Origin: Nostoc sp. CENA543
Lineage (GTDB): Bacteria > Cyanobacteriota > Cyanobacteriia > Cyanobacteriales > Nostocaceae
Direction of reading: 5' to 3'
Assembly: GCF_002896875.1 (NCBI RefSeq)
Contig: NZ_CP023278.1
Coordinates: 5,898,501 to 5,962,500 of the forward strand
DNA length: 64,000 nt
The notes under the pieces are model-generated. The model searched no databases, was not told the origin of the DNA, and saw only the letters and a list, made by a program, of their open reading frames with translations. The position numbers were made by a program, and so were the translations under genes. Shown in pieces: positions 16,159 through 36,788 of the stretch (position 1 is the stretch's first letter; every line of letters starts with the position of its first letter).

Positions 16159-16233
16159 CTGGAATTTCATATTAACTATCAAATGCCTCTAGATACACAT
16201 TCATATTAGAGGTAAACTTGCATCTGGCTATAT

Positions 16234-23532: not shown

Positions 23533-25567
<2,035 letters not shown>

Positions 25568-31219: not shown

Positions 31220-31364
31220 GAAAGAGAAAAATTTGAGATTTTTTGTTCTTATCTAATCAGGGTTTTGCAAGTCATTAAAATAAATATTTGTAAATATATA
31301 TTGACATTATCATTTGTTTTCTAGACAACCGAATCTAGAAGAATAATTTGTCATACAAATATTT

Positions 31365-31871
31365 ATGAATAAATTAATTATTGCTATTTCTGTAATTTCT
31401 ACATTGGTGATTAGTGGTTGTAATGTGGAGATTAATCATAATGTACAGGCGACTCCTAGCACTCAAGCAACGCCAGAAACAACACCAAGTCCTACTCAGG
31501 AAAGTAGTACCCCAGAGAATACTGTCACAGCTTCAGAAACACCTGAAAGTGGTGAACCTAATGATAGTCCCACGGAAGCTGAGAATTCACAGCCAGAAGT
31601 TGGCACAGTGAAAGAGTTAGTCAATGGTGATTTGAAATGTTATGTCACTTTAATAGATGAAAATGGTACGGAACATAATGTAGGTGCAACTTTTGAAATT
31701 TGTGCAGAAGAAAGCCAATTTTTAAATCAAAAAGTCCGTGCTACCTATGAAGTTGTCAAAGTCAATGATTGTCAAAGTGTTGAACCTTGTGGAAAAACTC
31801 GTGATGAATCTTTAATTACCAAAATGGAAATTTTAGATAATTCTTCAGACAATGAATCTGAGAATCAGTGA
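31365..31871 (+). CDS. Putative lipoprotein with Thr/Pro/Ser-rich linker
   Basis: A 168-residue protein whose N-terminus is a lipoprotein signal with lipobox VISGC and Cys19 as the lipidation site. Residues about 28-80 are rich in Thr, Pro, Ser and Glu, an extended linker. The C-terminal part (about 83-155, VKELVNGDLKCYVTLIDENG) is a small folded domain with four cysteines, two of them close together in DCQSVEPCGKT. It should be anchored at a membrane facing outwards. I do not recognise the family. Confidence 0.7.
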   Translation: MNKLIIAISVISTLVISGCNVEINHNVQATPSTQATPETTPSPTQESSTPENTVTASETPESGEPNDSPTEAENSQPEVGTVKELVNGDLKCYVTLIDENGTEHNVGATFEICAEESQFLNQKVRATYEVVKVNDCQSVEPCGKTRDESLITKMEILDNSSDNESENQ

Positions 31872-31949
31872 AATAAGTAGAACATGGTAAATAATTAAAT
31901 ATTTGTGGAGAGAAATTTAGTTCTCTCTACGAGACGCTCCGCAAACAGA

Positions 31950-31975
31950 AAAGGACTAAAGTCCTTACTACGAAC
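31950..31975. repeat. Dispersed palindrome AGGACTaaAGTCCT, copy 2
   Basis: The AAGGACT/AGTCCTT core with a right arm ACTACGAAC matches the copies at 27766 and 50969, but the left outer arm is missing. It lies in the gap between convergent genes, after GAGAGAAATTTAGTTCTCTC, a second small inverted repeat at about 31909-31928. Confidence 0.75.
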
Positions 31976-32059
31976 TGAAATCTAGTATTTTTATATTGCT
32001 TAATTCTGGTTTTTTCTAGTCGTTCTACTTATCAGAGCTAGTGACAACTCAAATGATTT

Positions 32060-33097
32060 TTATATAAAACAATTAAGTTGTTTTTGTGTTTTTAATAGAA
32101 TATGCTGTGCTGTGCCAGTTTTGGCAGCTTTCTTTAACCAATATTTAATCTCATGAGCATTGCCTAAAAAATGGTCTGCTTTCGCGATATAGCAACAACT
32201 GTACGCCATATCAGTGAGATCATTTCCTTCTTCTGTTAAAGGTAAAAGCATTTCTTTACCTTCACTGTATCTACCTAATTCTATTAAAATTGCTCCTCTA
32301 GTTCCTTGAATAGTTTTAATATCACTAGCTAGGGATAATGCTTGAGCAGACCATTTATCAGCTTTTTGAAGGTATTGTGTTTGTTCATGATCAATCACAA
32401 ACGTTACTAAAATATCAAGGATATAAAGTTGATCTCTAATGATGAGATGATCATTCATTAAAATTTGCTCAAATAATTGCATCGCTTGGTCAAAATTACG
32501 TTTTTGTAATTCTGCCATAGCTTTATATAATATATGTAATGTTTTTAAATCGTTATTAAAAAATTCATTTGCAGCATCATCTCCATTTTTTGTATATCTG
32601 GCTAAACCTAACTTTTTCTGAAGAAATTGCTCATTAGTTTTAGTTAAAGCATCTAATATTTGTTTACCATCAGTGGGATGACTCCTGCCGTATATATTGG
32701 ATTCATATGGCAAAAGATTGCCAGTAAATAAAAAGAGCTCATATACACTTAAAAAGGCTGCTGGATTGTATTCATTAAAAAAGAGGTTGCCGTATTTGCC
32801 AAAAACCATGATGAATATAAACAATAAACCATTCATCATTGGCCCGGCTAAATACATAAATATCAACTTAGGCTTCAAGTTTTCTAAGCTCAAGTTAGAG
32901 GTATAGGTAATACCACCACTGGGAATCAAACAAAATTCTATTTTGGATTCTAAAAATTTGAAGTCTAATATCCTCTGTCCACTGCCGATTTTGACAAAAT
33001 GGGGATTAAATCCCACTATTTTAGCCGCTATAAAATGCCCCATTTCATGGCAAAAGATGGAAAAATAAAACCATATGCCAATAAGTAATAACTCCAT
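32060..33097 (-). CDS. M50-type membrane metalloprotease with helical-repeat C-terminus
   Basis: A 345-residue site-2-protease-like protein. The zinc motif HEMGH is at 17-21 in the first membrane helix, and the second conserved region NLLP...HPTDG at 127-144 gives the third zinc ligand, Asp143. The first 130 residues contain three to four hydrophobic segments. Residues about 155-345 are TPR-like helical hairpins (for example ALYKAMAELQKRNFDQAMQLF). M50 enzymes cut within membranes, often to release regulators; the substrate here is unknown. The soluble repeat domain may recruit it. Confidence 0.85.
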   Translation of the reverse strand: MELLLIGIWFYFSIFCHEMGHFIAAKIVGFNPHFVKIGSGQRILDFKFLESKIEFCLIPSGGITYTSNLSLENLKPKLIFMYLAGPMMNGLLFIFIMVFGKYGNLFFNEYNPAAFLSVYELFLFTGNLLPYESNIYGRSHPTDGKQILDALTKTNEQFLQKKLGLARYTKNGDDAANEFFNNDLKTLHILYKAMAELQKRNFDQAMQLFEQILMNDHLIIRDQLYILDILVTFVIDHEQTQYLQKADKWSAQALSLASDIKTIQGTRGAILIELGRYSEGKEMLLPLTEEGNDLTDMAYSCCYIAKADHFLGNAHEIKYWLKKAAKTGTAQHILLKTQKQLNCFI

Positions 33098-33299
33098 TGA
33101 CCATATACCATTGTTTTCATCTATTAGTATTCCCAGTTAGTTAATTATTTTTTTAAGTAAAAATACGAAAAAATGGCAATCTCAGCCTAATGAATATTAT
33201 TGAAGTAGCAGCTAAGACAACTATTAGTTAATAATAAAATGCTGTTCCAACAGGGTAAATTCTCATGTATCCTGGTCAAACACACGTAAATTTCTATTT

Positions 33300-35075
33300 A
33301 TGGTTCAGCAAACTTATATAACTGATGTCTTAGTTGTTGGTGGTGGAACTGGCGGGACGGCTGCGGCTATCCAGGCGGCGCGTCGCGGTGCTAAGACTAT
33401 CCTGGTGAGTGAATTTCCTTGGTTGGGGGGAATGTTAACATCTGCTGGAGTATCCGCACCTGATGGCAATGAATTAATGGCGTTTCAAACAGGAATATGG
33501 GGAGCATTTTTACAAGAATTACAACAACGACAACCAGGGGGATTAAATAACAGTTGGGTGAGCTTTTTTAGTTATGATCCCCGTATTGGAGCAGAAATTT
33601 TTGCTGATTGGGTGAAAGAGTTAGCAAATCTGCAATGGATTTCTGGAGAAGTCCCCCTAGAAGTATTCAAGCAAGATAACTGTGTTACTGGTGTGCGGTT
33701 TACAGATTTTACTGTTGAAGCCAAAGTGATTCTTGATGGGACGGAGTTAGGAGATTTACTGGCTTTGGCAGATATACCTCACCGTTGGGGTTGGGAATTA
33801 AAGTCGGAGTGGGAAGAACTCAGCGCGCCTGTTGAATTTAACGCCATTACTGCTAAATATCCCGTACAGTCACCGACTTGGGTTGTCTTAATGCAAGATT
33901 TTGGTGCAGATGTTGCACCAGAAATTCCCCCAGCACCAAATTATGATCCTGCATTGTTTGTTGGTGCTTGGGAAAAATATGGTGCAGAGAAATTCTTGAA
34001 CTATGGTCGCTTGCCGGGTAATTTATTGATGATTAACTGGCCTATTTGTGGTAATGACTACGGTGAAGGGGTAGGAAGATTAATTGATTCAGCACCAAAT
34101 AAAAGTGATTTTTTACAGGAATGCCGTTGGCATAGCCAAAATTTCGCCCATTTTATTCAAAATCAGCTTGGTCGACGTTACGGTTTAGCAGAGCAAGTTT
34201 TTCCTCATAGCCATTCGGCTTTTGCTTTGCATCCTTATTATAGAGAGAGCCGCCGCTTGGTGGGACTTACGACTGTAAAAGAACAAGACATCCTACCAGT
34301 TACAGGGGGTAGAGTGGCTGAATTATTCCCTGATAGTATTGCGATCGCCAACTACGCTAATGACCATCATTATCCAGGTTTTGACTTACCACTACAACCC
34401 AAATCTATCCGTTGGGGAGGACGCTGGACAGGGACACCCTTTACTATTCCCTACCGTTGTCTCGTTCCAACCACTACAGATGGTTTATTAGTTTGTGAAA
34501 AAAATATTTCTGTCTCTCACATCGCTAATGGTGCAACGAGATTACAGCCTGTGGTTTTGGGTATCGGTCAAGCCGCAGGAATGGCGGCGGCGATGTGTGT
34601 AGAGTTAAATTGTCAGCCACGCGATTTACCCATCAAAGCTTTACAGGAAGCATTATTACAGGATCAGCACGCCCCGTCTGCTATTGTTCCGTTATTTAAT
34701 CTTGACCCCCATCATCCCCAATGGCTGCAATGGCAAACCCATTATCTCCGTGAACCCCAAGCTTATCCATATAATGGCGACTGTCCCGCTTCATCAGTTG
34801 ATAATTACTATCATTCCGAGTCTTACCTCGTATTAACACGGAGTGCAGACTGCTTTACAGGGATTTTCCAAATAGCAAATCAGCAAGATTACCGTTTTAC
34901 GATCACGTCTCCACCTGTTAATGTGGGGCAAAATTGGCAGCTTGTAACTAGGCGATCGCATATAGACGCGCAACTGCAAAAATTAACTCATCAACAACGC
35001 ATCACTGTTTGGGGCCATCTGAATCAAGCTGGTAACTGGTTATTAATAGAAAGCATTAAATTATATCCCAGCTAA
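33300..35075 (+). CDS. FAD-dependent oxidoreductase
   Basis: A 591-residue flavoprotein of the FAD-dependent oxidoreductase family PF12831, sometimes called xanthan-lyase-like. The N-terminal Rossmann motif VVGGGTGGTAAAIQAARRG is at 12-30, and a second nucleotide-contact motif GIGQAAGMAAAM lies near residue 420. The C-terminal 100 residues form an extra domain. The substrate is unknown. It ends about 100 bp before patX; the patX promoter elements lie just downstream of its stop codon, so the two are unlikely to be one transcription unit. Confidence 0.83.
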   Translation: MVQQTYITDVLVVGGGTGGTAAAIQAARRGAKTILVSEFPWLGGMLTSAGVSAPDGNELMAFQTGIWGAFLQELQQRQPGGLNNSWVSFFSYDPRIGAEIFADWVKELANLQWISGEVPLEVFKQDNCVTGVRFTDFTVEAKVILDGTELGDLLALADIPHRWGWELKSEWEELSAPVEFNAITAKYPVQSPTWVVLMQDFGADVAPEIPPAPNYDPALFVGAWEKYGAEKFLNYGRLPGNLLMINWPICGNDYGEGVGRLIDSAPNKSDFLQECRWHSQNFAHFIQNQLGRRYGLAEQVFPHSHSAFALHPYYRESRRLVGLTTVKEQDILPVTGGRVAELFPDSIAIANYANDHHYPGFDLPLQPKSIRWGGRWTGTPFTIPYRCLVPTTTDGLLVCEKNISVSHIANGATRLQPVVLGIGQAAGMAAAMCVELNCQPRDLPIKALQEALLQDQHAPSAIVPLFNLDPHHPQWLQWQTHYLREPQAYPYNGDCPASSVDNYYHSESYLVLTRSADCFTGIFQIANQQDYRFTITSPPVNVGQNWQLVTRRSHIDAQLQKLTHQQRITVWGHLNQAGNWLLIESIKLYPS

Positions 35076-35086
35076 AAAATTTTTCA

Positions 35087-35100
35087 GTAAAAAGGACTAC
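35087..35100 (+). promoter_or_regulatory. NtcA-binding site of patX
   Basis: GTAAAAAGGACTAC is a perfect GTA-N8-TAC box, the consensus for the nitrogen regulator NtcA. It begins 12 bases after the stop of the preceding gene and precedes the DIF1 motif by 15 bases. The published description of patX promoters in heterocyst formers gives this order: NtcA box, DIF1 motif, gene. Confidence 0.82.
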
Positions 35101-35115
35101 TTTTTTTTAGAATTT

Positions 35116-35121
35116 TCCGGA
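35116..35121 (+). promoter_or_regulatory. DIF1 motif (TCCGGA) of patX
   Basis: TCCGGA lies 57 bases before the patX start codon, within the 69-base limit reported for patX genes, and replaces a usual -35 element. After 19 bases comes TAGCAG (35141-35146) as a possible -10. DIF1 promoters are switched on in differentiating cells in a HetR-dependent way. Confidence 0.82.
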
Positions 35122-35178
35122 CTCTTTGCAAAAATCTCAGTAGCAGTAAATAAGAAAGTTCACAGAGAGAATTTTAAA

Positions 35179-35409
35179 ATGCGTGCTGCTGTTCCACTTT
35201 TAATCTCCAGTTTGGTAGTTGTTTCCCTGACTTTTGATGTATCGCAAATGACAAATAACAATTTTTTTGCTTCATTTGCGAATACACAGAATGTTGTCTC
35301 CCTACACAAGAAACCTAAGCGCAACCAACCAGAAGATTCTGCACCTAACCGTGGTAGTGGCAGAAGAGATATCATGAGGTCTCAGTTTAATAACTACTTC
35401 CGTGTGTAG
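35179..35409 (+). CDS. patX: PatX, RGSGR-containing inhibitor of HetR
   Basis: A 76-residue precursor with a hydrophobic N-terminus (about 4-19, export signal-like) and the pentapeptide RGSGR at residues 58-62 (bases 35350-35364), followed by Arg-Asp-Ile-Met. RGSGR peptides bind HetR, block its DNA binding and set heterocyst spacing. PatX is the HetR-partner family that shares just these two conserved parts. The NtcA box and DIF1 motif upstream match the published patX promoter layout, which secures the call. It is on the same strand as hetR. PatS, another RGSGR peptide, is much shorter and HetN is a dehydrogenase, so both are excluded. Confidence 0.93.
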   Translation: MRAAVPLLISSLVVVSLTFDVSQMTNNNFFASFANTQNVVSLHKKPKRNQPEDSAPNRGSGRRDIMRSQFNNYFRV

Positions 35410-35891
35410 TATTCAGTCACTATGGCGTTTGCTCTTTAGTTTCTGTTCCATAAAAAGCAAACTCAACACTGTTGAACTCTTTTAATAGAATCTTTTGCAA
35501 GAAGAAAACCTTTAAAATTTTGGTTTTATTACCAATTCACAACTAATTAGTCTGATTGACAGCATCACCAATCTTCAGAGCATTGATACATAAAGCTCGG
35601 TGTTACTTCCAGGGTGTCATCCCAATTGAAAATTGATCGATTTGCAGTTGCTGCACAAACTTTTTTAATTATTAGAGTCACACCAACTCCAACCATAATT
35701 GCGTAAAAACTAATTTCCATCAAAAGGCAGAGGAGATAAAGAAATCTACAAATCATCTTTATTCCTCTGCCAAAAATTTTAATTATTTATCCTATTCTGA
35801 CTTGAAAAAGGGGTGTAGGGGTATAGAGGTGTAAGGGTTTAAGGGAAAGACTTTTTCATGTTTTCTTGTGTACGCAGTTCATGACGGCTAC
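35410..35891. other. Intergenic region after patX
   Basis: This 482-bp gap lies between convergent patX and the ferritin-like gene. A 63-codon minus-strand frame (35565-35756) has a hydrophobic N-terminus but no family resemblance and was left out. Near 35810-35848 there is a degenerate GGTGTAAGGG-type repeat. No clear terminator was found for patX. Confidence 0.5.
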
Positions 35892-36788
35892 TTACTTGCT
35901 ACTTTGAGATTGATTTTCTCTTTTCTGCACACCATTAATAAACATGGGAACAAACTTATTAAAAAATGCTTCTGGGTCACGTTGCCATGCTCTTTGTGCT
36001 GCTTGAATTCTGGTAAATTGTAGGTTTGGTGCTAACAAAGTTTGCGGTAAACGTTCCATGAAATATTGGGGACGCTCCCATACTGGCATTGTATTGGCGA
36101 TTTCCACTAGGTTAGCAACCCGTCTGAGTTCTGCACCCAAAGTAATATCCATCCCCGACTCAAACGCTGCTTGCTCAATGGCGGCGTATTTGTGTTTAGC
36201 TTGCTCCACTTTTTGGCGGTGTTCAAGACTCTTATCTGCTATCTGTGCTAACCAACGATTACCCCAACGGACGTGTCCCGCTTCTTCTGGCAGAATTTTC
36301 TCAATTGTTTCGCGGATTTTAATATTTTCTGCTGTTTGAGGTGCTTGTTTGAGAGCGTAAATATGAGCCGAAAAATACTCACAACCCCTTTTTTCGGTGA
36401 CATTAATGGCGGCAATAGCAGAAATGAGAAAACTATCTAGGTCTTGAGCAGGATCATACTGTTCGCTGTCTAGTAATCTCTCAAATTCTTCTATGTAAGA
36501 AGAACCAGGGGGTGTACCGACATTTGCACCTAAGTCTACTAGTAAATCAGTTAACCACATAGCATGACGAGCTTCATCAGCGATGTGATGGGATAAATCT
36601 CGAATCAGTTCCGGTGGTTTACCGTTGAGTCTTTCAATTACGTCTGTTAAGTCTTTACAGCTACGCTGCTCACTATAACGATAGCGGTTCAGGGTGATCA
36701 GGTGAATCTCGCGATCGCTCACTACTTGTTTGAGTACGTCCCGCGCACTCAATGTATTCTGAAATTTCCGTGGATAAGCTACTGTCAT
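35892..36788 (-). CDS. Ferritin-like (di-iron fold) domain protein
   Basis: A 298-residue, largely helical protein. Two EXXH-type motifs, DEARH (Glu72, His75) and EEAGH (Glu169, His172), with further Glu residues in the intervening helices (Glu27, Glu132), fit a ferritin-like four-helix bundle that binds two metal ions. Such proteins can be oxidases or hydroxylases; the substrate is unknown. It is well conserved in appearance and has no signal peptide. It is transcribed divergently from a small 67-residue gene. Confidence 0.75.
   Translation of the reverse strand: MTVAYPRKFQNTLSARDVLKQVVSDREIHLITLNRYRYSEQRSCKDLTDVIERLNGKPPELIRDLSHHIADEARHAMWLTDLLVDLGANVGTPPGSSYIEEFERLLDSEQYDPAQDLDSFLISAIAAINVTEKRGCEYFSAHIYALKQAPQTAENIKIRETIEKILPEEAGHVRWGNRWLAQIADKSLEHRQKVEQAKHKYAAIEQAAFESGMDITLGAELRRVANLVEIANTMPVWERPQYFMERLPQTLLAPNLQFTRIQAAQRAWQRDPEAFFNKFVPMFINGVQKRENQSQSSK

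Follow-up and report, generated by a model that had tools for sequence, protein, structure and literature searches.

Introduction

Does a 76-codon reading frame of Nostoc sp. CENA543 encode PatX, the small precursor protein whose peptide keeps adjacent cells from developing into nitrogen-fixing heterocysts, and does it stand behind the usual promoter of that gene? The frame lies in a window of 64,000 nucleotides, which is the whole stretch of DNA that was analysed. The original prediction had read it as patX, preceded by an NtcA box and a DIF1 motif and placed on the same strand as hetR. The features of the locus are given in Table 1.

Table 1. Features of the patX and hetR loci of Nostoc sp. 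CENA543 (positions in the window)
Feature	Position	Strand	Basis
NtcA-type box GTA-N8-TAC, GTAAAAAGGACTAC	35087-35100	+	exact match; NtcA binding predicted
DIF1 TCCGGA, -35-type element	35116-35121	+	exact match, nearly fixed distance to ATG
Putative extended -10 region (GTAGCAGTAAATAAG), predicted transcription start near 35153	35140-35154	+	DIF1 centred at -35
Short leader, conserved to an unusual degree across the family	35155-35178	+	bits per base, 45 thinned loci
patX reading frame, 76 residues and stop	35179-35409	+	NF047413.1, hydropathy, dN against dS
Codons for hexapeptide NRGSGR, residues 57-62	35347-35364	+	read directly
hetR, target of the PatX-derived peptide	24668-25567	+	NF009718.0, 631.2 bits
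DIF1 318 bases before hetR	24350-24355	+	exact match

Results

On re-reading the sequence, the predicted coordinates and length of the gene held, as did the presence of RGSGR at residues 58-62 (35350-35364), followed by 14 residues. The TCCGGA element ends 57 bases before the ATG, as predicted, and its first base lies 63 bases before it. The product scored 63.1 bits (cut-off 30) with the NCBIfam equivalog model NF047413.1 (heterocyst_PatX), the match joining residues 1-64 to positions 1-68 of the 69 in the model; no Pfam match was found at E 0.01. A search at E 0.01 found a PatX match in 142 of 192 genomes of the family Nostocaceae, and the 50 genomes without a match lack one at that sensitivity and no more. 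The closest relative among the 142 was that of G172 (96% identical). Sixteen representative proteins aligned over their full length with invariant positions also outside the pentapeptide, so that in the proposed alignment check the similarity to PatX proteins was found to extend beyond RGSGR. The N-terminus was hydrophobic, with a hydropathy peak of 2.72 at residues 7-17, and on hydropathy this is a candidate Sec-type signal peptide. HetR was present in all 60 of the PatX-bearing genomes that were searched for it. The rate dN was lower than dS in all seven same-genus pairs computed (Nei-Gojobori), among them CENA543 with G172 (0.017 and 0.06), CENA543 with G079 (0.147 and 0.526), and G166 with G169 (0.067 and 0.179).

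Judged by these comparisons, the 76-residue product is PatX, as predicted; the gene belongs to a known kind and stands behind the promoter usual for it. That the frame arose by chance and merely contains RGSGR could be argued from the 123 places in the genome that could encode R-G-S/T-G-R-like codons, but the curated model match, the full-length alignment and the signal of selection refute it, and we regard it as extremely improbable. A separate reading frame of 63 residues with a hydrophobic start and no Pfam match at E 0.01 was observed just 3' of patX, on the minus strand (35565-35756).

The window contained 19 copies of GTA-N8-TAC against 11.1 expected, and the box by itself is poor evidence. 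TCCGGA occurred twice, one copy lying 5' of hetR and the other 5' of patX, against 7.9 expected from shuffles. The promoter call is carried by comparison across genomes and not by such chance counts. We read 110 of the 142 PatX loci, comprising the 30 best-scoring and 80 picked by hand for spread over genera; these loci share ancestry, and their motif counts are therefore not independent trials. At the expected place, DIF1 was found as exact TCCGGA in 106 of them and as TCCGGG in the other four. Upstream of DIF1, GTA-N8-TAC was found in 75 of 110 and the looser GT-N10-AC in 106; an NtcA-type box was also present in the four TCCGGG loci and in G036. The gap between DIF1 and ATG, in 105 loci, was 57 bases in 85, 56 in 19 and 60 in one, and from centre to centre the NtcA-type box and DIF1 were 23-26 bases apart in the 70 loci measured. 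The predicted NtcA box and DIF1 are exact matches at CENA543 patX, DIF1 being exact in nearly all of the loci read.

Since DIF1 is centred at -35 in DIF+ promoters (PMC6133370), transcription would start near 35153, with the NtcA-type box centred at about -60. The word GTAG, 17-18 bases after TCCGGA, was common to patX, hetR and patS of CENA543. A sigma-70 consensus scan of 34900-35900 gave two promoter-like sites against 2.3 expected, neither of them at patX. In PCC 7120 the patX promoter is NtcA- and HetR-dependent (PMC7761841), and its DIF1 promoter depends on HetZ (PMC7377430).

We also considered that patX might be silent or in decay and have survived only by chance. The genome has a second inhibitor gene, patS, and the NtcA-type box differs among lineages, both of which would suit such a copy. 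Against it stand the excess of dS over dN in every pair, the promoter that is intact in all 110 loci apart from the four with TCCGGG, and the single patX copy of the genome, which is intact and free of internal stops. Decay is therefore very improbable.

DIF1 was further compared at other genes. At hetR it was exact at -307 to -318 in all 13 same-genus genomes and in none of 47 others. The simple statement that hetR has DIF1 only in this genus fails, since CCCGGA was found at about -310 in three of the 47 and exact TCCGGA elsewhere within 1.5 kb of hetR in nine (two of the 47 loci had less than 1.5 kb of upstream sequence). A clade of five genomes (L222, L224, L227, L228, L237) contained TCCGGA-N18-GTAA at -690 to -971 of hetR, possibly a separate DIF1 promoter. 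The patS gene of CENA543 (L052) ends in DERGSGR-stop and has TCCGGA about 650 bases upstream; TCCGGA was found 367-670 bases upstream of patS in all 12 same-genus loci read (of 13 genomes). Among 13 ERGSGR-stop loci of other genera, it was found at -637 in one (G015) and at -1233 in another, and none was found in the sequence examined of the other 11, one of which was short.

The pattern TCCGGA-N16-19-GTAG occurred at five places in the whole CENA543 genome, which is not above the nine of a reversed-pattern control; the identity of the places, rather than their count, is telling. They were hetR, patX, patS, a solitary NsiR1-like RNA, and a place opposite a probable coding region that is probably a chance site. 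The solitary NsiR1-like RNA (RF02399, 51 bits, gathering score 39; L239 1443-1493, which is G000:C1:4422286-4422336, minus strand) is preceded by a TCCGGA-N17-GTAG of its own and is remote from the main NsiR1 array (3290356-3292184), where 13 copies over the cut-off lie within 2 kb. In Leptolyngbya BL0902, patX adjoins hetR behind one predicted DIF1 promoter (PMC11298460), an arrangement that would fit an old link between DIF1 and patX.

Strong conservation was found in the 24 bases that precede the patX start codon. In 45 PatX loci, thinned to less than 85% ungapped identity over 110 bases, they held a mean of 1.16 bits per base, against 0.56 and 0.57 in two non-motif stretches. The means were 1.29 for DIF1 (depressed by one-base shifts), 0.77 for the -10 stretch, 0.85 for the spacer before DIF1 and 0.65 for the NtcA-type box; codon positions 1, 2 and 3 of patX codons 2-17 gave 1.07, 1.71 and 0.93 (45 loci, the coding sequence of one being replaced by that of a near relative). 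Upstream of the ATG the frame stays open in this genus, yet many loci of other genera contain an in-frame stop a few codons 5' of the ATG, so that the conservation of the leader is not that of a protein.

No consensus RNA fold was found in the 45 thinned sequences, and only three of the 45 loci had a Shine-Dalgarno-like word between -16 and -4. A target for NsiR1, with the solitary copy as the only one used, was rejected: 4 of 20 other start regions in the window gave a better value than the predicted duplex of -22.8, which was also equalled or undercut by 84 of 500 mononucleotide shuffles. Sharing of the leader with other genes was rejected as well, because a search of the genome with up to three mismatches gave three places, of which two had all three mismatches, against nine for the reversed pattern. 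In the literature searched, which left the founding PatX paper outside, no earlier report of a conserved patX leader was found.

One tentative reading, which we hold to be possible but rather unlikely, is that this leader of about 24 bases and nearly fixed length is a regulatory element that sets the timing or strength of translation of the precursor, and that, linked to this, DIF1 stood first on patX throughout the family and came to hetR and patS later, lineage by lineage. If true, the inhibitor arm of heterocyst patterning would carry a post-transcriptional control undescribed in the literature examined.

The pentapeptide of the 110 PatX loci was RGSGR in 102, RGTGR in seven and RGGGR in one. 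As hexapeptides, 109 loci contained HRGSGR (85), YRGSGR (9), HRGTGR (7), NRGSGR (3), VRGSGR (3), FRGSGR (1) and DRGSGR (1). The 110th, that of G036 (L121), contained YRGGGR with DIF1 and the NtcA-type box intact and the pocket residues of HetR unchanged. All seven HRGTGR and all three NRGSGR proteins belonged to the 13 same-genus genomes, and each of the two groups needed one change on a tree of hetR from 60 genomes (support 100/98). From this tree, RGTGR appears to have arisen once, in the seven-genome clade. Published work describes RGTGR in only 'a few PatX alleles' (PMC7761841). The prediction was correct that PCC 7120 has RGTGR, according to the papers, but not in treating RGSGR as a change of this strain, since RGSGR is the usual form and RGTGR the exception; the inhibitor core is thus unchanged in CENA543. 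On the same comparison, the unusual feature of CENA543 is the asparagine before RGSGR, the core itself being of the commonest form.

In the structure of the HetR hood with PatS6, Glu253 is bonded by the serine of RGSGR, and the residue preceding this motif gives only its main-chain amino group (PMC4649674). That work predicts the asparagine of NRGSGR to be neutral. ERGSGR binds HetR with an affinity of 12 nM (PMC4649674) and HRGTGR with 88 nM (PMC12756182); these values come from different studies, and they suggest that NRGSGR may be a tighter binder than the PatX peptide of PCC 7120. HetR of CENA543 keeps the contact residues R223, E253, E254, D256, D270 and D278. Compensating changes in HetR were considered and rejected, because only E254 varies among these six residues in 60 genomes; it is T in five (G012, G021, G070, G096 and G112), all with HRGSGR. 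E254 contacts the N-terminal amino group of the peptide, and E254A weakens the binding of PatS6 by PCC 7120 HetR to 91 nM (PMC4649674).

Both genes were found in the window on one strand, as predicted, with hetR 9,611 bases before the ATG of patX, but this is not a conserved arrangement. Linkage was compared in 30 genomes, 23 of which had both genes on one contig. In 20 of these 23 the genes were divergently oriented on opposite strands with 8.4-15.2 kb between them; the remaining distances were 9.6 kb in CENA543, 38.7 kb in G100 and about 648 kb in G075. The same-strand order of CENA543 is best read, from comparison of the flanks, as a rearrangement. Sequences at about 16.25 kb and 32.1 kb of the window are less than 70 bases apart in G079 and in G166, those at 16.25 kb and 33.3 kb are separated by 107-842 bases in G139, G102 and G039, and those at 17.9 kb and 33.3 kb are about 110 apart in G052. 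G172 has the CENA543 order at the right-hand junction (31360-35804 on one contig). In G079 the sequence past the hetR block matches the CENA543 genome at 611-614 kb, so the rearrangement was not a simple local inversion. The breakpoints were placed at about 16240 and 32060 of the window. A 13-base AT-rich inverted match, possibly due to chance, was observed at 16230 and within 31600-32300.

Discussion

In our study, we found that the gene is very probably patX, with a promoter of DIF1 and an NtcA-type box, and that its product would be an exported and processed inhibitor of HetR. This reading is based here on the identity of the gene, the promoter elements, their conservation and the intact peptide pocket of HetR; expression, export, processing, movement and inhibition are carried over from published work on PCC 7120. 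Upon nitrogen step-down, patX would be switched on in prospective heterocysts by NtcA together with the HetR/HetZ pathway, and transcription would proceed from the DIF1 promoter with the NtcA-type box upstream. The hydrophobic N-terminus would direct the export of PatX, and the peptidase PatP would cut the protein down to about NRGSGR. This peptide would bind the hood domain of HetR and release HetR from DNA, and neighbouring cells would be kept from differentiation. For PatX of PCC 7120, export, PatP processing and inhibition of HetR have been described and a diffusing signal argued for (PMC12756182); in the same work PatX-sfGFP remained cytosolic, which counts against this reading. Overexpressed PatX of PCC 7120 blocks heterocyst formation (PMC7761841).

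PatX may instead be largely redundant, with patS and its DIF1 promoter setting the pattern and PatX acting mainly in the producing cell or when nitrogen is replete, and we give this a little less than an even chance. CENA543 has such a patS, with TCCGGA upstream. The patX mutant of PCC 7120 is reported to have no discernible phenotype without combined nitrogen and to make heterocysts in nitrogen-containing medium (PMC7761841). However, PatX of CENA543 has RGSGR, as PatS has, and not the RGTGR of PCC 7120, so that its role may be stronger here, and the export and diffusing signal argued for in PCC 7120 also speak against redundancy. The effects of PatX in Leptolyngbya BL0902 looked largely independent of HetR (PMC11298460), which argues against a uniform role of PatX.

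Returning to PatX as an exported inhibitor, the new points of this study are comparative and concern the conservation of the leader, the fixed distance from DIF1 to ATG, the variant NRGSGR and the rearrangement around hetR. The locus is a clean record of patX in which the commonest signal core follows an unusual asparagine. It can now be tested whether RGTGR, as found in the PCC 7120 clade, is a weakened version of the core, in which case the model strain would be atypical for PatX, and what causes the strong conservation of the patX leader and of its length.

Among known systems, HetN resembles PatX of CENA543 in its internal RGSGR and in restraining HetR. The 76-residue product, which is without a Pfam match at E 0.01, differs from HetN in that the latter is a putative ketoacyl reductase (PMC4649674). 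No HetN was recognised by eye among 20 of the 123 possible R-G-S/T-G-R places, chosen by their codons from 100 of the 123; the motif was encoded in the tested frames of 10 of the 20. PatS is likewise an RGSGR inhibitor of HetR with a DIF1 promoter, but it is a peptide of 13-17 residues that ends in RGSGR (PMC7476756), whereas PatX of CENA543 is much longer, continues past the motif, has a hydrophobic N-terminus and occurs beside a separate patS.

The closest likeness is to PatX of PCC 7120 (asl2332) in size, hydrophobic N-terminus, internal RG(S/T)GR, a DIF1 promoter with an NtcA-type box and a companion hetR. The two differ in the hexapeptide, which is HRGTGR in PCC 7120 according to the papers and NRGSGR in CENA543, threonine being replaced by serine and histidine by asparagine. 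The neighbours of asl2332 are all2333, alr2331 and asl2329 (PMC7761841), and CENA543 differs from PCC 7120 in having hetR on the same strand as patX.
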